From positions 1 to 64,000 of IMG/VR virus record IMGVR_UViG_3300022927_001391: a stretch of 64,000 bases of DNA. One strand, given 5' to 3'. Below are positions 7,541 through 26,901 of the stretch, piece after piece. The stretch's first letter is position 1; the number at the start of each line of letters is the position of its first letter. This DNA comes from a virus. The notes beneath the pieces are model-generated. The model was not told the DNA's origin, made no database searches, and saw only the letters and a program-made list of their open reading frames with translations. Made by a program: the position numbers and the translations under genes.

Positions 7541-8029
7541 ATGGGTTTAAAACTAGCAGGCATAATGTTTATACTAATGCTCGCAATGGGCGGAGGTGCT
7601 TATTGGTATTATACGGATACACAAGAGCGCATGCGTGTACTTGCGGAAAACAATGCCAAGCTAGAGATTGCTGTTCAAACACAACAGCAGGCTATAGAAC
7701 AGCAGAAGAAAGACATAGCCGCTGTTAATGCAGAAAAAAATGCACTTAACGCTGAGTTCCAAGCTAGCAGACAACAGGTTGAAGATCTCAGAGGTAAATT
7801 TAATAAAACAAGTAAGTTACTTGGTCAGCGTGACATTGGAGAACGTGCTATTGCAAAACCTGGACTTATAGAAAAGGTAATAAGCAAAGGCAGTAACAAT
7901 GTTATGCGCTGTTTTGAAATACTAAGTGGTGCTCCGCGCACCGAGAAGGAAGAAAATGCTGAGAAGAAAAGTCAGATCAACAGTATGTGCCCTGACGTGG
8001 CCAATCCTCACTACATTCCTACTCCTTAG
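7541..8029 (+). CDS. Inner-membrane spanin-like protein (Rz-like)
   Basis: The 162-residue protein has one N-terminal TM segment (residues 5-24) followed by a long Gln/Glu/Lys-rich coiled coil (about 28-100). This is the N-in, C-out layout of i-spanins. The next gene, encoding a lipoprotein, overlaps its 3' end by 74 nt in another frame, as in Rz/Rz1 pairs, and the lysozyme gene lies just upstream. i-Spanins join an o-spanin to fuse inner and outer membranes at lysis. There is no specific sequence motif; the call rests on topology and context. Confidence 0.72.
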   Translation: MGLKLAGIMFILMLAMGGGAYWYYTDTQERMRVLAENNAKLEIAVQTQQQAIEQQKKDIAAVNAEKNALNAEFQASRQQVEDLRGKFNKTSKLLGQRDIGERAIAKPGLIEKVISKGSNNVMRCFEILSGAPRTEKEENAEKKSQINSMCPDVANPHYIPTP

Positions 8030-8438
8030 TTTGTCGGCATGTGGCTCAAGTGTTAAGCCAATTCAAATAGTTAGCGCACCACTAGAGCGTGTTCCACTTG
8101 ACTTACCACCAGTAGATGTGTTAAAGTTAGACGATGTCAATTGGATAATCGTAACAGAAGAGAATGTTCAATCAGTTTGGGAAGACCTTGAAAAGAAAAA
8201 GTACAGCGTAGTAATATTTGGACTTACTGACAAAGGCTACGAAGATCTAAGTGTAAACGTTGCTAAACTAAAGAAGCTAGTGCAGCAACAAAAAGCAGTA
8301 ATAGCAGCATATAAAAAGTATTATGAACAAACAGACAAGGCAGTAGAAGAGCGAAATAAAAAAATTGATGAAGAAAAAAATAACGTAAATAATAATGATA
8401 CGTCCATCTTTGATGGTATTAAAGGACTATTTAAATGA
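7956..8438 (+). CDS. Outer-membrane spanin-like lipoprotein (Rz1-like)
   Basis: The ATG at 7956 is chosen over an upstream GTG because GAGAAGGAAG precedes it and it gives a signal peptide ending in the lipobox LSAC (Cys about residue 29). The mature part is Pro-rich at first (LDLPPVDV) and then a helical, Lys/Gln-rich stretch. At 160 residues it is long for an o-spanin. Its overlap with the i-spanin candidate and the proximity to the lysozyme support the call. It could also be an unrelated lipoprotein. Confidence 0.68.
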   Translation: MLRRKVRSTVCALTWPILTTFLLLSLSACGSSVKPIQIVSAPLERVPLDLPPVDVLKLDDVNWIIVTEENVQSVWEDLEKKKYSVVIFGLTDKGYEDLSVNVAKLKKLVQQQKAVIAAYKKYYEQTDKAVEERNKKIDEEKNNVNNNDTSIFDGIKGLFK

Positions 8439-8973: not shown

Positions 8974-9182
8974 ATTTTCGTCATCCAGGTGATGTTGGAC
9001 AAAGTTATTTTCAGCATTTACTATTTGCACTAATAGAAGCAGTTAGGTGTATTGTGGTTGGAATATTGCTTATAATTCATGCTGTATTTCCGTTTGTATT
9101 TGATTACATTTACAGCAATCATATACGTAAAGCCAGTGAACGCATTAGTAAATTTGATAGGAAAAATGGAGATTCTAAATGA
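8967..9182 (+). CDS. DUF6356-like small membrane protein
   Basis: The 71-residue protein starts at a GTG overlapping the previous stop. The pattern FRHPGDVGQSYFQHLLFALIE followed by a hydrophobic helix with HAVFPFVF matches what I recall of DUF6356, short proteins found mainly in alphaproteobacteria. One or two TM segments are predicted (residues 17-45). The function of the family is unknown. Its presence hints at an alphaproteobacterial host. Confidence 0.6.
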   Translation: MLNFRHPGDVGQSYFQHLLFALIEAVRCIVVGILLIIHAVFPFVFDYIYSNHIRKASERISKFDRKNGDSK

Positions 9183-10099
9183 ACGAACAAGGTTTACAAG
9201 AGAAATTAGCAACAGGATATAAAGTAGAAGACCCTGATGAGATGACACCACGTTATCGTGACGTTCTTGTAAATACTATTCATATTGCAGCAGACTTAGA
9301 AGTAGTAACACTGCCAACATATTTTCCTGCTATTAAAAACTCACCTACACTAGAAGATAAACTAGCAGTTGCAGCAGCTTGTCAGGACGAACTTGGACAT
9401 GCACAAGTTATGTACAGACTTCTGGAAGACTTTGGGTATGACACACACGAATTTTTGTTTGAGCGTGATCCAGAAGAATGGCGTACATTCCAAATGTTAG
9501 AATTCCCCCACGAAGACTATATCGAAACTGTAGTAAGTATGTGTTATGGCGATAGAGCGGGGTACATTACAACTGTTGACCTAGAAGAGAATTGCAGTTA
9601 CGCACCTCTTGCACGTGGTTTACGCAAAGTAAACTTTGAAGAAACCTTCCATGTTAGTCATGGAGAACGCTGGACAAAGTTCTTTTGGAATAAAGATGAA
9701 GACAGTAGACGAAGAGTGCAGGAGTGCGTTGACTTTTATTTCCCATTATGTGCTGCATGGTTTGGTTTGCCAGATGAACATAAGACAAGAACAGATCAAC
9801 AGACTTACAGAATTCGTGGCGGAACAAATGACGAGATGCGTCAGATTTGGTTAAGTAGAGTTGTTCCCTTTAGTGAAGAAGTTGGAATTAAAGTTCCAGC
9901 TCACTATGATGCAGAACTAGGCAAGTTTGTGTTAGATTATACTGCTCCTATACGTTTAAATGAAGATACACGTAAATGGGACTATGAAGACACAATGACC
10001 TGGGAAGAGCAACTAGCTATTTGGAAACGTGGCAGCAAGCACAAAATTCCTAGTATCACAGAGGTTCAAACAGAAACTTGGGGTACAGAGCTCTGGTGA
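9179..10099 (+). CDS. PaaA-like diiron oxygenase (phenylacetyl-CoA epoxidase subunit A family)
   Basis: The 306-residue protein matches PaaA in length and in the four-helix diiron site: E41 in AADLEVVTLP, D70-E71-x-x-H74 in CQDELGHAQVMY, and E154-E155-x-x-H158 in NFEETFHVSHGERW. PaaA is the catalytic subunit that epoxidises ring-CoA substrates using O2. It normally works with PaaC, PaaB and the reductase PaaE, none of which is seen here, so the substrate may differ. The neighbour encodes a DUF59/PaaD-like protein. The ATG overlaps the preceding stop. This is unusual cargo for a phage. Confidence 0.82.
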   Translation: MNEQGLQEKLATGYKVEDPDEMTPRYRDVLVNTIHIAADLEVVTLPTYFPAIKNSPTLEDKLAVAAACQDELGHAQVMYRLLEDFGYDTHEFLFERDPEEWRTFQMLEFPHEDYIETVVSMCYGDRAGYITTVDLEENCSYAPLARGLRKVNFEETFHVSHGERWTKFFWNKDEDSRRRVQECVDFYFPLCAAWFGLPDEHKTRTDQQTYRIRGGTNDEMRQIWLSRVVPFSEEVGIKVPAHYDAELGKFVLDYTAPIRLNEDTRKWDYEDTMTWEEQLAIWKRGSKHKIPSITEVQTETWGTELW

Positions 10100-10407
10100 T
10101 TACAGAGCAGCAAATACGTCAATCCCTAGAACAAGTAAACGACCCACATGTGCCTGTTCCGATAAGTAGCATGGGCATGTTACGTGACATTACAGTTAAC
10201 AACAATAATGTTCACGTAGAAGTCTGTATACCATGTATGGGCTGTCCGGGCACTGGAGGACTAGTACAAGACATTAAAGATTGCCTATCAGCTATACCAG
10301 GCATAGGCACTGTAGATGTAGAGCTAGCATTTCATTTGCCGTGGGATAGAGACATGGTAACAGATGAAGTAAAGGAAAAAATGCGTCTTAACGGCATTCA
10401 AATTTGA
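10096..10407 (+). CDS. DUF59/MIP18-family (PaaD/SufT-like) protein
   Basis: The GTG at 10096 overlaps the paaA-like stop (GTGA) and yields 103 residues. The core NDPHVPVPISSMGMLRDI matches the DPE-x-P-x-DLG-x-V motif of DUF59 proteins, and CIPCMGCPGTGG supplies the conserved reactive cysteine region; AFHLPWDRDMV is the C-terminal PW motif. Family members help load iron-sulfur clusters or mature metalloenzymes, and PaaD is needed for the PaaABCE complex. The pairing suggests that it matures or assists the upstream diiron protein. Confidence 0.8.
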   Translation: MITEQQIRQSLEQVNDPHVPVPISSMGMLRDITVNNNNVHVEVCIPCMGCPGTGGLVQDIKDCLSAIPGIGTVDVELAFHLPWDRDMVTDEVKEKMRLNGIQI

Positions 10408-10792: not shown

Positions 10793-11752
10793 GTGGAATT
10801 AGTTACTTTTTGGATGGCCATAGGATTTCTCATGGCCGCTTACAGTGTTATAGCAAATGACAGTGTACAAACGCTAGGCACTTGGATTGCTAGCAATCAC
10901 GAACGTTTTAATTATAAAATTCTTTGGGCCGCCTCTTCGGCGGTTCTTTTATGGGCATTGTGGTACGGATGGTACGTCAATGGTGGGGATATTAGTTACG
11001 GGCGACTAACTAAAATTCCATTTATTGAGGTGCAATGGTATCATGCAGTAGCACCAGCAGTACTGTTATTAATGACAAGGGTGGGCGTACCAGTTAGTAC
11101 GTCCTTTTTAGTCTTAAGTGCATTTGCTAGTACGTTTGTATTAGAAAAGATGCTTATGAAATCAATCATGGGCTATGCTATTGCAGCAATCAGTGCATAT
11201 GCTCTGTGGCACATTGTCAGTAGACTTATTGATGAAAAGAAACCAATTGGTGATCACTGGAGTAGACCATACTGGCGTGTAGCACAGTGGGGAACAACAG
11301 GGTTGCTATGGTGGACATGGTTAAGTCATGACATGGCTAACATTGCAGTGTTCTTACCAAGACAGATTCCTGTAGACTTAATGATTGTTATTAGTGTCAT
11401 CTTTGTTGGCGGGCTAGCATGGATGTTCAAGGAGCGTGGCGGTAAGATCCAAAACATTGTGTTGGAAAAAAGCACCACACGATATATTAGAAGTGCTACG
11501 CTAATTGATCTAGTGTATTTTGTAATTCTCTACTTCTTTAAGGAACTTAACAGTATTCCAATGAGCACAACATGGGTATTCGTAGGCTTGTTAACAGGTA
11601 GAGAACTTGCTATTGCTACGGTTCATAATACTAAGATGAAGCAGGTATTCCCGCTGGTAACTAAAGACTTTATTAAAATGATGATTGGTTTAGGTGCTAG
11701 TGTAGGTATAGTTTTGTTCATTCATTACCTAGTTGTTCCAAACGGCTGGTAA
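10793..11752 (+). CDS. PiT-like integral membrane protein
   Basis: The 319-residue protein starts at GTG with GGGAG 7 nt upstream. It has about eight hydrophobic segments. Two motifs resemble the duplicated signature of inorganic-phosphate (PiT) transporters: SVIANDSVQTLGTWIAS near residue 19 (PiT has GANDxxNxxG) and VGVPVSTSFLVLSAFAS near residue 101. The relation looks distant, so the transported ion could be something else. A sigma70-like promoter stands just upstream, so it can be expressed apart from the operon before it. The 3' end overlaps the convergent hydrolase gene by 35 nt. Confidence 0.6.
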   Translation: MELVTFWMAIGFLMAAYSVIANDSVQTLGTWIASNHERFNYKILWAASSAVLLWALWYGWYVNGGDISYGRLTKIPFIEVQWYHAVAPAVLLLMTRVGVPVSTSFLVLSAFASTFVLEKMLMKSIMGYAIAAISAYALWHIVSRLIDEKKPIGDHWSRPYWRVAQWGTTGLLWWTWLSHDMANIAVFLPRQIPVDLMIVISVIFVGGLAWMFKERGGKIQNIVLEKSTTRYIRSATLIDLVYFVILYFFKELNSIPMSTTWVFVGLLTGRELAIATVHNTKMKQVFPLVTKDFIKMMIGLGASVGIVLFIHYLVVPNGW

Positions 11753-12308
11753 TAAGTTCTACTACTCGTTTACTCTGTACGATCTCGTAGTGATTGCGGT
11801 CTATTTCTATAAACTGCATATCACTACGAGACATCATACTATCTCTAGTAACAATACCATCATTCTTCCCCATTATCCAGGGAACACTGCCTACAGTAGT
11901 AACAACCTGAGTCCAGGGAATGTTTATTGATATATTTCTACTGTATTCTATAAAAGAACTTTCTGGAGTTATATCTCTAAAAAGTTTATAGCCAGGATTC
12001 ATGAATCTAGCCCAGCTAGCTATTTCACTACCGTTATAAGGAGTAGCAAGTGTAACCCCACCCTTTACTCGTTCAGGGAATTCATCTAAAATATACAGAT
12101 TGTATATACCTCCCAGACTGTGGCCTATTAGAAACAACTCGTCATCATCATAACTAAGTTCTTCAATAAATCTGTCAATGTTATTACTTGCTGTTGAAGT
12201 AGAGCTATCATAATTACAAAAATGCGTTCTATCATAATCTATAGATTGCTGAATAAACGCAAAACTTCTTTCCGACCCATTGGCGCCGTGTGTGTAAACT
12301 ATTCTCAT
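11718..12308 (-). CDS. Alpha/beta-hydrolase (lipase/esterase-like)
   Basis: The 196-residue protein begins MRIVYTHGANGSE, the HG oxyanion strand of the fold, and has the nucleophile elbow GHSLGG (Ser near residue 64). An Asp in KNDGIV and a His in RNHYEIV at the C-terminal end complete a plausible triad. The frame extends further upstream, but the ATG at 12308 is chosen because it gives a compact domain and sits next to a late box on this strand. A role in membrane-lipid attack at lysis is possible. It is divergent from the holin-like gene. Confidence 0.75.
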   Translation of the reverse strand: MRIVYTHGANGSERSFAFIQQSIDYDRTHFCNYDSSTSTASNNIDRFIEELSYDDDELFLIGHSLGGIYNLYILDEFPERVKGGVTLATPYNGSEIASWARFMNPGYKLFRDITPESSFIEYSRNISINIPWTQVVTTVGSVPWIMGKNDGIVTRDSMMSRSDMQFIEIDRNHYEIVQSKRVVELITSRLEQLGNE

Positions 12309-12313
12309 ATGAA

Positions 12314-12321
12314 TATTTATA
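12314..12321 (-). promoter_or_regulatory. Late promoter box, leftward half of a shared palindrome
   Basis: On the reverse strand these bases read TATAAATA, 5 nt before the ATG of the hydrolase at 12308. They are half of the palindrome TATTTATAAATA (12314-12325). The resulting leader would be extremely short. Confidence 0.45.
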
Positions 12322-12325
12322 AATA
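12318..12325 (+). promoter_or_regulatory. Late promoter box TATAAATA, rightward
   Basis: An exact late consensus 29 nt before the ATG at 12355. It overlaps the leftward box, forming a 12-bp palindrome. Confidence 0.6.
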
Positions 12326-12354
12326 CACAAAATAAGCAATCGAGGAGAGTAGAT

Positions 12355-12690
12355 ATGGCAGACGGAGCAGAACCAATTAGACGCAAGATTGAATTAGAAG
12401 TAGAATTAGATACTAGTGAAAAAGTAGTATTACCAAACAAGTATCAGAACATTATTGATCTTGCTAAAGCAGTAGACGCTTGGAGAATTTTCCCAAGACT
12501 ATTCCTAACAGTGTACATTATTTTATTGTACAAAACTGTGATTTGGTTTATGGCACTTGAAGATCCAAACATGAATCAAGCAGGACTTATCTCAGTAGTA
12601 GTAGGTGCTGGCGCAGCATGGTTTGGTTTATATACAGGCAGCAGTAAAAAGTTTGATGGCCCTGCTCCAACTGCTCCTGCTAAAAAATAA
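12355..12690 (+). CDS. Holin-like small membrane protein
   Basis: The 111-residue protein has a charged cytoplasmic N terminus, a TM helix at about 45-68 (FPRLFLTVYIILLYKTVIWF) and a second at about 78-95 (GLISVVVGAGAAWFGLY), then a Pro/Lys tail. This two-TM, charged-end layout fits class II holins. A late box and a strong ribosome-binding site (GAGGAG) precede it. No holin motif is definitive, and the lysozyme lies 5 kb upstream, so the function is inferred. Confidence 0.55.
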   Translation: MADGAEPIRRKIELEVELDTSEKVVLPNKYQNIIDLAKAVDAWRIFPRLFLTVYIILLYKTVIWFMALEDPNMNQAGLISVVVGAGAAWFGLYTGSSKKFDGPAPTAPAKK

Positions 12691-12696
12691 TAGCAG

Positions 12697-12724
12697 TTGA
12701 CAATATAATTCATTAATGTATAAT
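12697..12724 (+). promoter_or_regulatory. Consensus sigma70 promoter for the dnaJ-like gene
   Basis: TTGACA (12697-12702), a 16-nt spacer and TATAAT (12719-12724) match the consensus perfectly. The ATG at 12732 is only 7 nt after the -10 box, so the transcript would be leaderless or nearly so. Confidence 0.75.
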
Positions 12725-12731
12725 TACATGT

Positions 12732-13586
12732 ATGGATTACTATGAAACTTTAGGTGTAAAGCCCACCGCCACTGATGATGAGATCAAGAGTGCCTTTAGA
12801 TTAAAAGCAAAGGAGTATCATCCTGATCGTGGCGGTGATAAGGCTAAGTTTCAGCAAATTAATGAAGCTTATGATACACTAAAGGATAATAGTAAACGAA
12901 AGCAATATGATTATACACGCAGTGGTGCAAGACATAACAATTTCCACTTTAACATAAATGGACAGGACTTTAGTGGTGATCAATTTGGAGATGTCTTCGC
13001 TGACTTACACAGTGTATTTGGAGATCGTTTCGGATTTAGAAAAGCCAGACACCCAGGTCGTAATAAAGATCTCAATGTAACAGTTGAACTAGAATTACGA
13101 GATTTAATTAATATAGTAAAAAAGACTTTAAGTATAAGACACACTACCGGTGAACGGAAACTTGTAGACATTACGCTACCTCCTGGTGCAGAAAATAATA
13201 CAACAATGCGCTACAGAGGTTTAGGCGATAGTGCTATACCTAATTTGCCGCCTGGTGATCTATTTGTGGGTGTAAGAATTAACCCCGAGCGAAACTTCGT
13301 TGCTCAAGGATTTAATCTTATGACAACTGCTACTATTGATGCCTTTATGGCAATGGTAGGTGGCAAGATATTAGTAAAAACAATCGATGGTAAAAATATA
13401 AGTTTAACAATACCAGAAGGTACACAGTACGGAACTGTAATGAGTGTGCCGGGATATGGATTACTTGATAAGTCAGGAATACGAGCAAATATGCTTGTAC
13501 AGATATTAGTTAAAATTCCTGAGAACCTAACTCAGGATCGGTTAAATACAATTAGAAGAATGATGGGAGTTAACATTGAAGTTTAG
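12732..13586 (+). CDS. DnaJ/CbpA-like J-domain co-chaperone
   Basis: The 284-residue protein has an N-terminal J domain with YYETLGVKPTATDDEIK and the HPD motif (H30-P31-D32) that stimulates DnaK ATPase. The two beta-rich client-binding domains follow (from about residue 110, VTVELELRDL and DITLPPGAENN). The Cys-rich zinc finger of full DnaJ is absent, as in CbpA. It probably recruits host DnaK to phage proteins. A consensus promoter lies immediately upstream and the 3' end overlaps the ClpA-like gene, giving a two-gene chaperone operon. Confidence 0.9.
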   Translation: MDYYETLGVKPTATDDEIKSAFRLKAKEYHPDRGGDKAKFQQINEAYDTLKDNSKRKQYDYTRSGARHNNFHFNINGQDFSGDQFGDVFADLHSVFGDRFGFRKARHPGRNKDLNVTVELELRDLINIVKKTLSIRHTTGERKLVDITLPPGAENNTTMRYRGLGDSAIPNLPPGDLFVGVRINPERNFVAQGFNLMTTATIDAFMAMVGGKILVKTIDGKNISLTIPEGTQYGTVMSVPGYGLLDKSGIRANMLVQILVKIPENLTQDRLNTIRRMMGVNIEV

Positions 13587-19488: not shown

Positions 19489-19933
19489 TTTAAAGTTAGT
19501 ATTAACAGGAACAGGTTGGGAAGATCACTGGCCAAGCTGTAGAGTATCTGTCAATGACACTGAATTCTACAACAATGAGATTATTGGCGAGCAGACAGTT
19601 GAGTTTGATTTAGATTTACAAGATGATAGTGAAAATGTTTTAAAAGTAGAATACTATAACTTAGACTTCCGTAAAGATATAGTACTAAATGACTCAGGCG
19701 AACAAATTAAAAGCAAATATGTTACAATTAATAAGTTATTTGTTGACGACATAGATTGTTGTAATATTCCCTACGATTTAAGCGAAGTATATGTAAATGA
19801 CGGTTGGTATACAAAACAGGATCCACAAGATTTTCCCAATCCACGTAAGAATGAAATGCAATTAAGCTGGAATAGCACCTGGTGTTTAAAGTTTAATAGT
19901 CCAGTCTATCTGTGGTTATTAGAAAACTTATAA
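19475..19933 (+). CDS. Beta-sandwich, possible carbohydrate-binding protein
   Basis: The 152-residue protein has alternating beta-strand patterns (LVLTGTGWEDHWPSCRVSVN, TVEFDLDLQDDSENVLKVEY) like small carbohydrate-binding modules of the xylan-binding type. The shorter protein at 23997-24233 has the same opening pattern (strand, then RVFVNGELMLERDF). The 3' end contains a late box. Virion surface binding is a guess. Confidence 0.5.
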   Translation: METVNLKLVLTGTGWEDHWPSCRVSVNDTEFYNNEIIGEQTVEFDLDLQDDSENVLKVEYYNLDFRKDIVLNDSGEQIKSKYVTINKLFVDDIDCCNIPYDLSEVYVNDGWYTKQDPQDFPNPRKNEMQLSWNSTWCLKFNSPVYLWLLENL

Positions 19934-19936
19934 ATA
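19929..19936 (+). promoter_or_regulatory. Late promoter box TATAAATA, 4 nt from a start codon
   Basis: An exact late consensus ends 4 nt before the ATG at 19941. If used, transcription would begin at or just inside the start codon, giving a leaderless message, or the functional start lies further in. Confidence 0.5.
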
Positions 19937-19940
19937 TGGT

Positions 19941-22900
19941 ATGCGTATTACAGAAGCAATCCAGCAAGTCGTAGCAATATATCCCGGGCGTTTTCACCCT
20001 TTCCACAAGGGTCACGCCAGTGTATATGGCTATCTTAAACAGAAATATGGCAGTGCTTATGTAGCAACAAGTAATAAAGTAGATCCACCCAAGAGTCCTT
20101 TTAGTTTCCCAGAAAAACGTGCAATGATGTTACATGCTGGTATTCCCAGTGATAGAATTGTACAAACAAAGAACCCCTATAAAGCAGAAGAGATACTAGA
20201 TTGGTACAATCCCGAAACAACAGCAGTAGTGTTTGCTGTTAGTGCCAAGGACATGGCTGATAATCCACGCTTTAGTTTTGCGCCCAAGAAGGACGGATCA
20301 GCCAGCTATTTCCAACCATTAGCTGGGCAAAAGAATTTAGAACCATTTAGTAAACATGCTTATATTGAAGTCGCACCAACTTTAGACTTTAAAGTCTTGG
20401 CTGAACCCATGCGCAGTGCTACAGAGTTACGCAAGAAATTTGCGCAGGCTGACACTGATACACAAAAGGATATAATAACAGATCTATATGGAACCTATAA
20501 TGCTCGTATTCACAGTATTATGGCCAATAAGATTAATGAAGCGTACTTGAAGTTTGAAGACTTACATAATATTATATTAGAGTTGTGGCGTTTAGACGTT
20601 GCTAAACCACTAGCAGAAGACGTAAAAGCTAAAATTATTGAACAAGTGCAGACAGCTAGAGAAGCCTGGCACAAAAAATACAAGCGCAATAAAAAAGTAC
20701 AGGAAGGTGATCTAATTCCATTTCCTGACAATACTATTGTCCTACAAACAACAAGTGATGAGGACTGGTATGAGCTGGGTAAAGACATTGCTAATTTAAG
20801 CAAAGCAGAAAAAGCAGAGTACGGACATGATGACTCTGATACACTAATGGTACTACCAGCACCTCTAGAAAAATATATTAAGGACAGAATAAAAAAGTTT
20901 ACTGGTTTGAAGTTCAAAGATACTAAACATCATGACAGTTACGAGTTAGCTGATATTGCTCACAAAGTATCAGAAGAAGATCAGCAACGCATTATTGAAA
21001 AGATTAGATCTCTTACTGAAACAATACGTAAGACTGGTAGTCAGTATACTGTTTACAGTAAAAAGGGTAAGCGCATGGGCACTTATCCAAGTAAAAAACA
21101 GGCTAAAGAACGTCTTAGACAGATTGAATACTTCAAGCATGTAAACGAAGCATTTGACAGTCCTTATCCACTAGTATGGGAAGGCAATCCAAATGGAGAT
21201 TCATCTGCTCTTGCTGAAATACCTACATCCAACGGCAACACTGCTTATTTGGATATAGAATTTAACACGTCAGGTGATAGTGGTCGTTTTGATATTAGCT
21301 TCACAAGAAATAGTAGAAGCAAAGCAGCAGGCACGGGCGATGAGTTTAGAGTTTTTGCTACAGTAATAGAAGCCATAAAGCAATGGTGGAATAAAGTTGA
21401 CCAGGATCGGGTTGTTAGTATAACTTTTAGTGCAGCAAAAAATACTAACGATAGTGCGATGTACCGTGGCGCTCCTGATAGTCCTCGTAGACACATACTC
21501 TATTCAAGATTTGCCAAACAATTTGCTAAACAAATTGGGTTTAAACTAAACATAGAAGATTTAGGTACTGGGGTTTATTTTTTCCTTACTAATCCAAAGA
21601 GCCTGTCAGATAATAAATTGGAGGAAGCATTTGACACCAAAGTTGAATGGGTCAAAGAGCTCGGACCAAGTGGGTCAACTGTATATGCTACTAAAGTAGA
21701 AGATGCTTATATAGAACTAACCTACAGGCCTGTGAGTAAGGGTGTATACATCAGTTTTACTCGTGGCGGTGTTATGAGTGTTACAGGTGAAGGTTCGCAA
21801 AATAAAATCTTTGGCGCTGTTATCAATCATATCAAACAATGGGCAGCAAAAAATAAACCAGAACAGATTATGTTTAGTGCCTTTAAACCTCGCACAGGCG
21901 CCTTTGGAAGTCAGGACAGTACTCGCAGTGGATTGTATCGCAAAATGGTACAACGCTTTGCTAACCAAAATGGTTATGAGTATGATGTAGAAGACACTGG
22001 AAACGAAGACACTTTTATTCTTAAAAGACAAGGTGTGGCGGAAGGTAAGAAAACAAACAAAGCATTTGTTAAACCACAGTTTGATGTAGAATGGGAAGAA
22101 GCAGCTCGCTATCCAGAGTTTCAAAAGATTGGCAAGGATGCCTGGATTGAACTTGCTAAGAAGGGCAAGTCAGTTACCATTAAAAGTGCTAAAGGTATTA
22201 ACAATACAGATGCCGCAGATCCTGATAGTTTTAAATCATTAGAACCAGAAAAACAAAAACGAGCTCTAGCACAACTAGAAAAAGGCACAGTTGAAATGCC
22301 CATTGTTGCTGTATACAGTGATGGCTACAAAGAATTAATTGGCGGCAATACAAGACTTACTGCTATGATGGCTAGAGACGGTAAGGCAACTGTGTGGGCA
22401 TTTAAAGTGCCAGACGAAGTTGCTAAACTAGCAGAAAACTTTGCGGAAGGTAAGAGTCCACATAAAAAAGGCACTAAGAAATACAAGGCACATATGGCAG
22501 CAATGCATGCTGGTATGAATGAAAGCTATAAACTACAACTAGAACGTGACGATGATCTACTCGTACTACACATTAAAGACACAAAGACTGGAAAGCGCAC
22601 TGAAGTAAGAGGAAAGCCCAACTACGAGGGCGATGGTTATGATGCCACAGATCCATTGCATCAACTCTTGGATAAGGTTGGCAAAGCAGCGAACATAAGT
22701 GAGCTTATGAATGGCGAGGTAGTAAGCATTAATCCACGTCATCCAGATGGACCACGTGCTAGAAAACATGCTGACAAGGCATTTAATGAAGACGTTGCCA
22801 AAGACTTAGAAGCAGAGTTTCCGGGTTTATACTTAGACTTATATAAAACAAAAGCAGGTTACATACTTGGCAAAATAGAACTACCTAAAGAAGAACGTGG

Positions 22901-23726
22901 TGAGGGCATTGGTACCCGAGTCATGCAACGAATCGTTGACATAGCAGACAGTGAAGGTGAAGTTGTTGCACTAACGCCCGATACAGCATTTGGTGCTAGC
23001 AGTAAAGGCAGACTCGAAAAGTTCTACAAGCGTTTTGGTTTCGTATTCAACAAAGGACGCAACAAAGATTATAGTTTTAGAGAAACAATGATTCGCTATC
23101 CTCAGGGCCCTCAAGCACGAGCAACAGTAAAAGATATAGCAGGCGAATCCATAGTTGAAATGGCCAAAAAGGTTCCAGGTGAACCTGGGTCCTATACAAT
23201 GAAACAGGGTAAAACAGAATATAAAATATCACCACAATTGAATAGTAATGATCGACCATCTGGTGAGTGGCAAATTTATGTGAAGGACAGAGGCGATTGG
23301 GAATGGGACAGGACAGTTGGTAGTAAAAGAGATGCTATTAATTGGATCAAAACCCAAAAAGACGAATCCATAAACGAAGCAGGTGTTGGGCGTATTACAA
23401 AACAGAACGCAACCAAAGACGCACCAATTGGTAGTGAGTTTGCAAATGTTAAGAAGCTAGGGTTGGGCAGTGGTAAGCCCAAAGAGCTACATGCTAAAGC
23501 AAGAAAGAATTCAGATCCCAATACACTATTCAATTTAGGTATTGGAGAATCTAAAGAACAAGAATTAGATGAAAGAGGCAGCATTACAGTACCATTTGCC
23601 AGTGGAACAAGTGTTACTATTGCGCCACATCGACCATTACGAGTTAAAAAGTCCACTAAAGGGAGACTACGTTATGAAAACCCTACAGCCAACACAAATA
23701 AATCTAAACGAGGAAAAACAGTATGA
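19941..23726 (+). CDS. Giant multidomain protein: nucleotidyltransferase, tandem domains, ParB-like, GNAT; possible internal-head polyprotein
   Basis: The 1261 residues contain, in order: a nucleotidyltransferase domain (1-165) with HPFHKGH at 19-25; a basic motif at 367-399; two tandem homologous ~135-residue domains (404-555 and 563-697); a ParB/Srx-like segment with GGNTRLTAMMARDG at 801-814; an unknown domain (862-945); a GNAT-like acetyltransferase (951-1055) with GEGIGTRVMQ at 988-997; and a basic tail. Nearly every junction has a site like the T4 prohead-protease consensus (I/L)xE: INE-A (200), VNE-A (403), LEE-A (562), VAE-G (701), FAE-G (836), INE-A (1146), IGE-S (1203). The inference is a capsid-packaged precursor cut into separate enzymes. 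Confidence 0.75.
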   Translation: MRITEAIQQVVAIYPGRFHPFHKGHASVYGYLKQKYGSAYVATSNKVDPPKSPFSFPEKRAMMLHAGIPSDRIVQTKNPYKAEEILDWYNPETTAVVFAVSAKDMADNPRFSFAPKKDGSASYFQPLAGQKNLEPFSKHAYIEVAPTLDFKVLAEPMRSATELRKKFAQADTDTQKDIITDLYGTYNARIHSIMANKINEAYLKFEDLHNIILELWRLDVAKPLAEDVKAKIIEQVQTAREAWHKKYKRNKKVQEGDLIPFPDNTIVLQTTSDEDWYELGKDIANLSKAEKAEYGHDDSDTLMVLPAPLEKYIKDRIKKFTGLKFKDTKHHDSYELADIAHKVSEEDQQRIIEKIRSLTETIRKTGSQYTVYSKKGKRMGTYPSKKQAKERLRQIEYFKHVNEAFDSPYPLVWEGNPNGDSSALAEIPTSNGNTAYLDIEFNTSGDSGRFDISFTRNSRSKAAGTGDEFRVFATVIEAIKQWWNKVDQDRVVSITFSAAKNTNDSAMYRGAPDSPRRHILYSRFAKQFAKQIGFKLNIEDLGTGVYFFLTNPKSLSDNKLEEAFDTKVEWVKELGPSGSTVYATKVEDAYIELTYRPVSKGVYISFTRGGVMSVTGEGSQNKIFGAVINHIKQWAAKNKPEQIMFSAFKPRTGAFGSQDSTRSGLYRKMVQRFANQNGYEYDVEDTGNEDTFILKRQGVAEGKKTNKAFVKPQFDVEWEEAARYPEFQKIGKDAWIELAKKGKSVTIKSAKGINNTDAADPDSFKSLEPEKQKRALAQLEKGTVEMPIVAVYSDGYKELIGGNTRLTAMMARDGKATVWAFKVPDEVAKLAENFAEGKSPHKKGTKKYKAHMAAMHAGMNESYKLQLERDDDLLVLHIKDTKTGKRTEVRGKPNYEGDGYDATDPLHQLLDKVGKAANISELMNGEVVSINPRHPDGPRARKHADKAFNEDVAKDLEAEFPGLYLDLYKTKAGYILGKIELPKEERGEGIGTRVMQRIVDIADSEGEVVALTPDTAFGASSKGRLEKFYKRFGFVFNKGRNKDYSFRETMIRYPQGPQARATVKDIAGESIVEMAKKVPGEPGSYTMKQGKTEYKISPQLNSNDRPSGEWQIYVKDRGDWEWDRTVGSKRDAINWIKTQKDESINEAGVGRITKQNATKDAPIGSEFANVKKLGLGSGKPKELHAKARKNSDPNTLFNLGIGESKEQELDERGSITVPFASGTSVTIAPHRPLRVKKSTKGRLRYENPTANTNKSKRGKTV

Positions 23727-25646: not shown

Positions 25647-26056
25647 TGCGGGTCCACGAGTTTACAACCAACGAAGATCTACGCAAGTGGTTTAAGGACA
25701 AATGGGTTCGTTTCGGTCCTGATGGTAAAATTCGTGGCGACTGTGCTAGGGATAGTAATAGTGAAGGCAAGCCCAAGTGCTTACCACAAAGTAAAGCACA
25801 TGCACTGGGCAAAAAGAAGCGTGCTACAGCAGCAGGCCGCAAGCGTAGAGAAGATCCTAATAAAAATCGTAAGGGTGCAGCAAAGAACGTTGCTACCGAA
25901 GGCCCAATTGGTAAAGCAGTTGGTGCTACAGTAGGTGCGGTTACTGGCACAGCAGTAGGTACAGTAGGTGCCGCAGTGACAGGAAAACCAAGTAAGATAT
26001 ATAAGGGTGCTAAAAAAGGTGCCAAGCTAGGTAAAAAAGCACTAGGGTGGGCATAA
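25646..26056 (+). CDS. Basic protein with glycine-rich hydrophobic tail, possible internal or injected protein
   Basis: The 136-residue protein begins MRVHEFTTNEDLRKWFKDKW. The first 90 residues are very basic (GKKKRATAAGRKRREDPNKNRKG). ATE-G near residue 92 fits a protease site. A Gly/Ala/Val-rich segment follows (about 93-118, AVGATVGAVTGTAVG) that could insert in a membrane, as glycine-zipper proteins do. This combination would suit a protein ejected with DNA, but no homologue is recognised. Confidence 0.6.
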   Translation: MRVHEFTTNEDLRKWFKDKWVRFGPDGKIRGDCARDSNSEGKPKCLPQSKAHALGKKKRATAAGRKRREDPNKNRKGAAKNVATEGPIGKAVGATVGAVTGTAVGTVGAAVTGKPSKIYKGAKKGAKLGKKALGWA

Positions 26057-26901
26057 TGAGATTTACTGAATTTGATTTAACTCCAGCGCAACGGGCTATT
26101 AGAGAACACATTAAGCGTGGCGTTCCTTTTAGTGAATGCATGTTCCGTCCCGGTAGTGAAGCATTTACAGAGTTTTATACTCGTGTACGTGAGATGCGTG
26201 AAAATCTTGACCTAGACTGGCAGGATGCTGAACTACTTGATACAAACATTGGTGAATGCATTATGGTAGAGGGCGAGAGTGTTCCTCTTGATGTTCCTAT
26301 AGAAGAGATACCAGATGATGCGGTATCCGACAGTGATCCTTTTAACGATGTTGCAAGAAAAGAAATGAAACAAATGATTGCAACTCGATTAAATGACTTG
26401 GCGCCTGTAGAGCGACAGGTAGTTTTATTAAGATATTGGGAAGATATGTCAGTAAAAGAAATAGGCGAATACACTGGGTTAGGAACAAGACTTGCAAAAT
26501 CTAATCTAACCAAAGCTCTTCATAAAATGTATAAAAATTGGGGTAAGGGCAAACACAGCGTAAATTTAAGGCAACTTATACAAAAAGAGTCTGTTGACAT
26601 TGACGAAGCAGAGTACCAGGGACGCAAAGTTAAACTAAACTCACCCAAGCGTGGTGGTCCTAAGAAGTTCTATGTATACACTAAGAATGACAAGGGTAAT
26701 GTTATTAAAGTAGCATTTGGTGCAAAGGATGGTGGCGGCAATCTTGCAGTTAAACTAAAAGATCCTAAAGCACGTAGAGCATTTGCTGACAGACATAACT
26801 GCGAGAAAAAGAACGATAAAACCAAGCCAGGTTATTGGGCTTGCCGGTTGCCACGTTACGCAAAGTCGCTCGGACTGAGTGGTGGTGGTACCTGGTGGTA
26901 A
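26056..26901 (+). CDS. Sigma-70 region 4 (HTH) protein fused to a basic phage C-terminal domain
   Basis: The ATG at 26056 overlaps the previous stop; the 281-residue product has an HTH of sigma region 4 at about 112-160 (LAPVERQVVLLRYWEDMSV, then KEIGEYTGLGTRLAKSN). Regions 2 and 3 of normal sigma factors are not seen, and it does not resemble T4 gp55. The C terminus (186-281) is a basic domain starting YQGRKVKLNSPKRG with KKFYVYTKNDKGNVIKV and RHNCEKKNDKTKPGYWACR, a domain I associate with structural loci of marine T4-like phages. IDE-A at 182-185 lies exactly between the two parts and fits the prohead-protease consensus. Confidence 0.7.
   Translation: MRFTEFDLTPAQRAIREHIKRGVPFSECMFRPGSEAFTEFYTRVREMRENLDLDWQDAELLDTNIGECIMVEGESVPLDVPIEEIPDDAVSDSDPFNDVARKEMKQMIATRLNDLAPVERQVVLLRYWEDMSVKEIGEYTGLGTRLAKSNLTKALHKMYKNWGKGKHSVNLRQLIQKESVDIDEAEYQGRKVKLNSPKRGGPKKFYVYTKNDKGNVIKVAFGAKDGGGNLAVKLKDPKARRAFADRHNCEKKNDKTKPGYWACRLPRYAKSLGLSGGGTWW

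Follow-up and report, generated by a model that had tools for sequence, protein, structure and literature searches.

A palindromic pair of late boxes in a marine T4-like phage: a probable divergent late promoter with a predicted leaderless left side

Introduction

Bidirectional bacterial promoters that arise from symmetry of the -10 element are established (Warman, Grainger and others; PMC12825309, PMC10268837). In the accessible text of these papers, symmetric core elements overlap on the two strands and polymerase binds in either orientation. The locus described here has the same layout, except that a phage late box stands in place of the sigma-70 -10 element, the predicted starts are 23 bp apart instead of the usual 18, and the two mRNAs would use different translation routes.

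The late promoters of phage T4, served by gp55, gp33 and gp45, provide a closer comparison. According to the accessible text of PMC1524935, the T4 late box spans -13 to -6. With this spacing, a box that ends five bases before an ATG has its +1 on the A. T4 carries the 12-mer studied here once, at 116450-116461, between late genes 26 (minus strand) and 51 (plus strand), with boxes 21 and 17 nt before the two ATGs. With T4, the present phage shares the 8-bp box, the placing of the palindrome between divergent late genes and the lack of a -35-type site there. Because of the T4 26/51 palindrome, the divergent late arrangement is not new in kind. T4 differs in that genes 26 and 51 are both leadered, in that none of its 65 boxes lies 4-6 nt before an ATG, and in that gp55 was not found in the record studied here. 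Our literature search, with few subscription journals within reach, returned nothing on the T4 26/51 palindrome.

Mycobacteria have many leaderless genes (PMC4633059, accessible text). These genes have no Shine-Dalgarno sequence and their initiation codon is at the mRNA 5' end, as predicted here for one of the two genes. In mycobacteria, GTG also serves as a 5'-terminal start codon, whereas the phage genes described below use almost only ATG and are preceded by a box of the phage late type. The cyanophage method of late-promoter prediction reportedly failed on pelagimyophages (PMC7029224, accessible text). In Melnitz, 15 late promoters were predicted, with no remark on leaders in the accessible part of the paper (PMC9004378). 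A pelagiphage RNA-seq paper deals, in its accessible part, with other phage groups (PMC12753301). On leaderless late genes in T4-like phages, the same literature search, again with few subscription journals within reach, found nothing.

Results

Two late boxes overlap in a palindrome

We analysed the first 64 kb (the window) of a virus record of 105,168 bp, named G000, which contains a T4-type DNA polymerase gene (phrog_262). A sequence-only reading had proposed that a 12-bp palindrome with a late box on each strand faces a hydrolase gene and a holin-like gene and could drive these two lysis-related genes in opposite directions. The palindrome and the two flanking ORFs are real (Table 1). TATTTATAAATA occurs once in the window and in none of 100 dinucleotide shuffles, and its origin by chance is unlikely. 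Within it, the T4-type late box TATAAATA is exact on both strands. Chance was set aside on these shuffles for the palindrome, but not for the count of single boxes: the window contains eight TATAAATA against 6.3 expected, and at least eight were found in 33 of 100 shuffles.

Position rather than number marks the boxes: 12 of 14 NATAAATA in the window are followed by the ATG of an ORF. The sole minus-strand NATAAATA is the hydrolase box. Two boxes are unusually close to their ATG, that of the hydrolase (5 nt) and the one at 19929 (4 nt); the remaining ten with an ORF are at 15-29 nt. A consensus scan revealed no sigma-70-like site overlapping the palindrome, hence no -35 element there, and an Rfam search of the window gave no match. 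No Shine-Dalgarno site was found before the hydrolase ATG.

Table 1 Features of the divergent locus and of the second short-gap box (window coordinates)
Feature	Position	Strand	Remarks
Alpha/beta hydrolase, lipase/esterase-like, 196 aa	11718..12308 (12308..11718)	-	Pfam PF00561, E 2.9e-7; Foldseek
Hydrolase late box	12314..12321	-	ends 5 nt before its ATG; predicted start 12308 = A of ATG (leaderless)
12-bp palindrome TATTTATAAATA	12314..12325	.	two late boxes overlapping by TATA; invariant in window, L002 and L003
Right-gene late box	12318..12325	+	ends 29 nt before its ATG; predicted start ~12331 by T4 spacing
Shine-Dalgarno-like GAGGAG of right gene	12342..12347	+	invariant in three-way alignment (window, L002, L003)
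Putative small membrane protein, 111 aa (right gene)	12355..12690	+	phrog_10198 (family without assigned function)
Second short-gap late box	19929..19936	+	4 nt before ATG of ORF 19941-23726

The palindrome may thus be described as two T4-type late promoters with a common central TATA, on which RNA polymerase with a gp55-like late sigma would sit in either orientation, one at a time. Rightward transcription would yield a leadered mRNA with a Shine-Dalgarno sequence for the small putative membrane protein. Leftward transcription would begin on the A of the hydrolase AUG and yield a leaderless mRNA, of which the ribosome must take the 5' AUG. We consider this full reading, a divergent late promoter with a leaderless left side, to be probable. 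The sequence-only reading had overlooked that the spacing of the left box is too short for any leader.

Each box is kept separately in relatives

Relatives of the right gene were found at 146 places in viral contigs, and 80 of these were kept as loci (L001-L080). Two of the 80, L002 and L003, have the hydrolase gene divergently upstream. Both keep the whole palindrome and the two A that precede it, and much of the remaining spacer differs from the window in the three-way alignment. Conservation thus holds in both of the other contigs found with the divergent pair, and the palindrome is conserved in only these two. A pattern search of the viral contigs for the palindrome followed by GAGGAG gave 56 distinct sites, few with ORFs on both sides. 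It was not used as a count of conservation because the sites were mostly AT-rich chance occurrences.

L001, which has neither hydrolase nor palindrome, retains a GATAAATA box, 28 nt upstream of its right gene. Such a box is not general: it lies within 60 nt of the right gene in 11 of the 52 distinct loci listed. Among those 11, five or six have it 6 nt before the ATG (L074 has two candidate starts).

For the hydrolase, a single-sequence search found no relatives and a profile search then gave nine loci. These include L084-L090, where the gene stands outside the divergent pair (contig ends truncate L087-L090; L084/L089 and L088/L090 are identical in the stretch shown). An ATAAATA box lies 4 nt before the hydrolase ATG in all of L084-L090 (L085 has two ATGs, at 1 and 4 nt). 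With this same proviso for L085, the hydrolase box is 4-5 nt from the ATG in the window and in all nine loci.

These data bear on two other explanations. In one, promoter activity is confined to the right-hand box: the left half of the palindrome would be a chance product of AT-rich DNA, and hydrolase transcription would begin at a different start upstream. The spacer is indeed AT-rich, single boxes are no commoner in the window than in shuffles, and leftward transcription is itself a prediction. However, the hydrolase keeps its box 4-5 nt before the ATG where the right gene is not its neighbour, and has no Shine-Dalgarno sequence in those loci, which makes this explanation unlikely. In the other, the palindrome is the operator of a dimeric regulator. 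Operators are commonly found between divergent genes, as is this perfect inverted repeat. Homologues with one of the two genes, however, keep one box and not the symmetry, and the symmetry is accounted for by the overlap of two TATAAATA; an operator seems very improbable.

Since each box is kept alone in relatives, the palindrome seems to consist of two promoters that are each maintained in their own right and came to overlap. A true divergent late promoter, as the sequence-only reading had it, is therefore likely from its conservation with the gene pair, the separate retention of each box and the T4 26/51 palindrome.

Products of the two genes

The left gene encodes a hydrolase, as had been proposed. 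A structure model (mean pLDDT 79) has lipases and esterases as its best Foldseek matches. Residues S64, D150 and H173, invariant across six homologues, are taken for the putative catalytic triad. The protein belongs to no PHROG family, and neither PHROG, Pfam nor fold searches revealed a match to an endolysin or other lysis family, or any tie to lysis. It was not found in INPHARED phages or in a scan of genome contigs, and a plasmid search returned two weak matches.

The hydrolase gene shares its last 35 bp (11718-11752) with the 3' end of a convergent ORF, 10793-11752. This ORF encodes a 319-aa membrane protein with a sub-threshold PHO4 match. Near the hydrolase, L002 (1996-3012) and L003 (1992-3002) have a PstS-like protein, as judged by eye. 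The PHO4-like and PstS-like genes are perhaps exchangeable phosphate-uptake genes.

The right gene product has two hydrophobic segments, identified by eye. It matched no holin family and no Pfam family, its PHROG family being the only match. Its relatives occur in 356 phage records, mostly Vibrio phages. The KVP40 homologue is located about 3 kb from Rz-like spanins, and the window itself has a spanin-like gene (phrog_739) at 7541-8029, about 4 kb from the palindrome. Because of these neighbours, a lysis role for the right gene stays possible, if weakly supported. PHROG, Pfam and fold matches do not support a holin on the right or an endolysin on the left, and the proposal of two lysis-related genes is not supported for the lipase/esterase-like left gene.

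In the region 7541-8438, another ORF, in which a lipobox-like stretch was recognized by eye, overlaps the spanin-like gene. At 9179-10407, two adjacent phage genes encode PaaA/PaaC-type and FeS_assembly_P iron-sulfur assembly proteins; L001 and L002 have the same pair by sequence.

A class of late boxes directly before the ATG

We then counted ATAAATA boxes by their gap to the ATG over whole records. A gap class required an ATG within 45 nt and an ORF of at least 60 aa; shorter ORFs and boxes without such an ATG remain in the denominators and in no gap class. Repeats of the same downstream context were counted once. The first ATG was taken, and the hydrolase of G007 (ATGs at gaps 1 and 4) is hence outside the short class. 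G004, a near-duplicate of G002 by matching sites, was left out. The ten marine records were picked as relatives of the right gene, the hydrolase or gp55, and are thus not a sample of phages at large.

In these ten T4-like records, 67 of 396 boxes are at gap 4-6, versus 220 of 16,457 sites for 20 anagrams of the box (G000 2/17, G001 6/24, G002 8/33, G003 9/55, G005 11/67, G006 7/25, G007 6/32, HTVC008M 9/45, Mosig 6/56, Melnitz 3/42). The phage studied here thus contributes just two. Four control phages have 2/196 when pooled (C48C1 1/34, Syn9 0/38, S-PM2 1/59, T4 0/65). The class is absent from C48C1 and from the cyanophages Syn9 and S-PM2, though all three are assigned to Kyanoviridae, the family of HTVC008M, Mosig and Melnitz. 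On loci L001-L080, an earlier count had found 36/152 at gap 4-6 versus 71/4,732 for anagrams. By pattern count alone, gaps 4-6 are found at one site in KVP40, four in P-SSM2 and none in S-ShM2.

The pooled gaps show a sharp peak at 5, with 16 boxes at 4, 50 at 5, one at 6, two at 7, five at 8 and none at 9. Seven follow at 10-14, and another 146 are spread broadly over 15-40. Shine-Dalgarno-like words precede 6/67 short-gap genes versus 128/146 long-gap genes. Start codons at gaps 4-5 are ATG 67, GTG 0, TTG 1 and CTG 1; at anagram sites they are ATG 162, GTG 48, TTG 50 and CTG 17. A pyrimidine stands before the ATG in 64/67 short-gap genes versus 481/1,108 Shine-Dalgarno-led ORFs of the same records (p 6e-19). 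Bacterial polymerase prefers a pyrimidine at -1 and a purine at +1. Few Shine-Dalgarno words, ATG-only starts and a pyrimidine before the ATG would all fit a 5'-terminal AUG.

Both promoters could also be real with a leadered left mRNA, arising from a start further upstream or by processing; the short gap would then reflect compact gene packing. The exact start site is a prediction, and the 6/67 short-gap genes with Shine-Dalgarno-like words agree with this possibility. Packing, however, predicts neither a peak at exactly 4-5 nt nor just 12/396 boxes at 8-14 nt, and neither ATG-only starts nor the pyrimidine before the ATG. We therefore regard a leadered left mRNA as quite unlikely, and favour the hydrolase box as one case of a wider class of putatively leaderless late genes in pelagiphage-type T4-like phages.

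The 68 short-gap proteins form 52 families, eleven of which have more than one member. One of these eleven is the DNA end protector gene (HTVC008M annotation), whose HTVC008M, Mosig and Melnitz members share about 40% identity and are all short-gap. The depositors' own annotation of HTVC008M places the start of nine CDS at gap 5. The 1261-aa product of the ORF behind the second short-gap box of the window resembles a cytidylyltransferase at its start and matches GNAT weakly; related genes of G001 and G003 belong to the short-gap class as well. Several short-gap genes of G007 (the contig of L085) start with MR-x-x-E-L-like sequences (MRLKEL, MRYQEL, MRFIEL).

Late sigma factor and possible early leaderless genes

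A PHROG search did not find gp55 in G000, a record that may be a fragment. In the ORFs of G000, phmmer with T4 gp55, gp45 and gp33 and three distant homologues found nothing. The PHROG search likewise did not find gp55 in G001, G005, G006 and G007, which may be fragments or carry a distant sigma. It found gp55 in W01-W07 and, distantly, in G002-G004. The window encodes a 284-aa protein with a sigma-70 region 4 domain (26047-26901). Its relative in G001 matches the two ends only (residues 4-87 and 181-284); the sigma-like middle may therefore be an insertion.

Beside the right gene, a perfect sigma-70 consensus, TTGACA-16-TATAAT, is located at 12697-12732. As it ends 7 nt before the ATG of a dnaJ-like gene, an early leaderless dnaJ-like mRNA is possible. 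Genes with similar first residues (MNYY, MDYY) have sigma-70-like sites 6-7 nt upstream in G001 and G006. In the ten marine records, 35/601 strong sigma-70-like sites are 5-8 nt before an ATG, 21 of the 35 at 6 nt (controls: Syn9 0/43, S-PM2 0/57, T4 1/49, C48C1 3/53). This count, made without a null, gives only a lead that early promoters may be placed for leaderless starts.

Discussion

The unexpected feature is the putative leaderless left side, with a short-gap layout that is common in the ten marine records and not in T4. It seems fairly likely that marine pelagiphage-type T4-like phages have a whole class of leaderless genes, with about one-sixth of late boxes placing +1 on the A of the AUG, and perhaps early sigma-70-type promoters placed in the same way. 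Phage proteins in these hosts would then regularly be made by leaderless translation, and the palindromic promoter pair would serve both translation modes at once.

The short-gap position of the boxes may bear on the unsuccessful late-promoter prediction for pelagimyophages by the cyanophage method (PMC7029224, accessible text). HTVC008M, Mosig and Melnitz are cultured phages, which makes the leaderless reading directly testable. The palindrome itself would provide a compact natural test of how polymerase is divided at a single late promoter site between opposite directions and two modes of translation. If the reading is true, some late proteins of this group of ocean phages are translated from leaderless mRNAs, by a ribosome route unlike that of T4 mRNAs.
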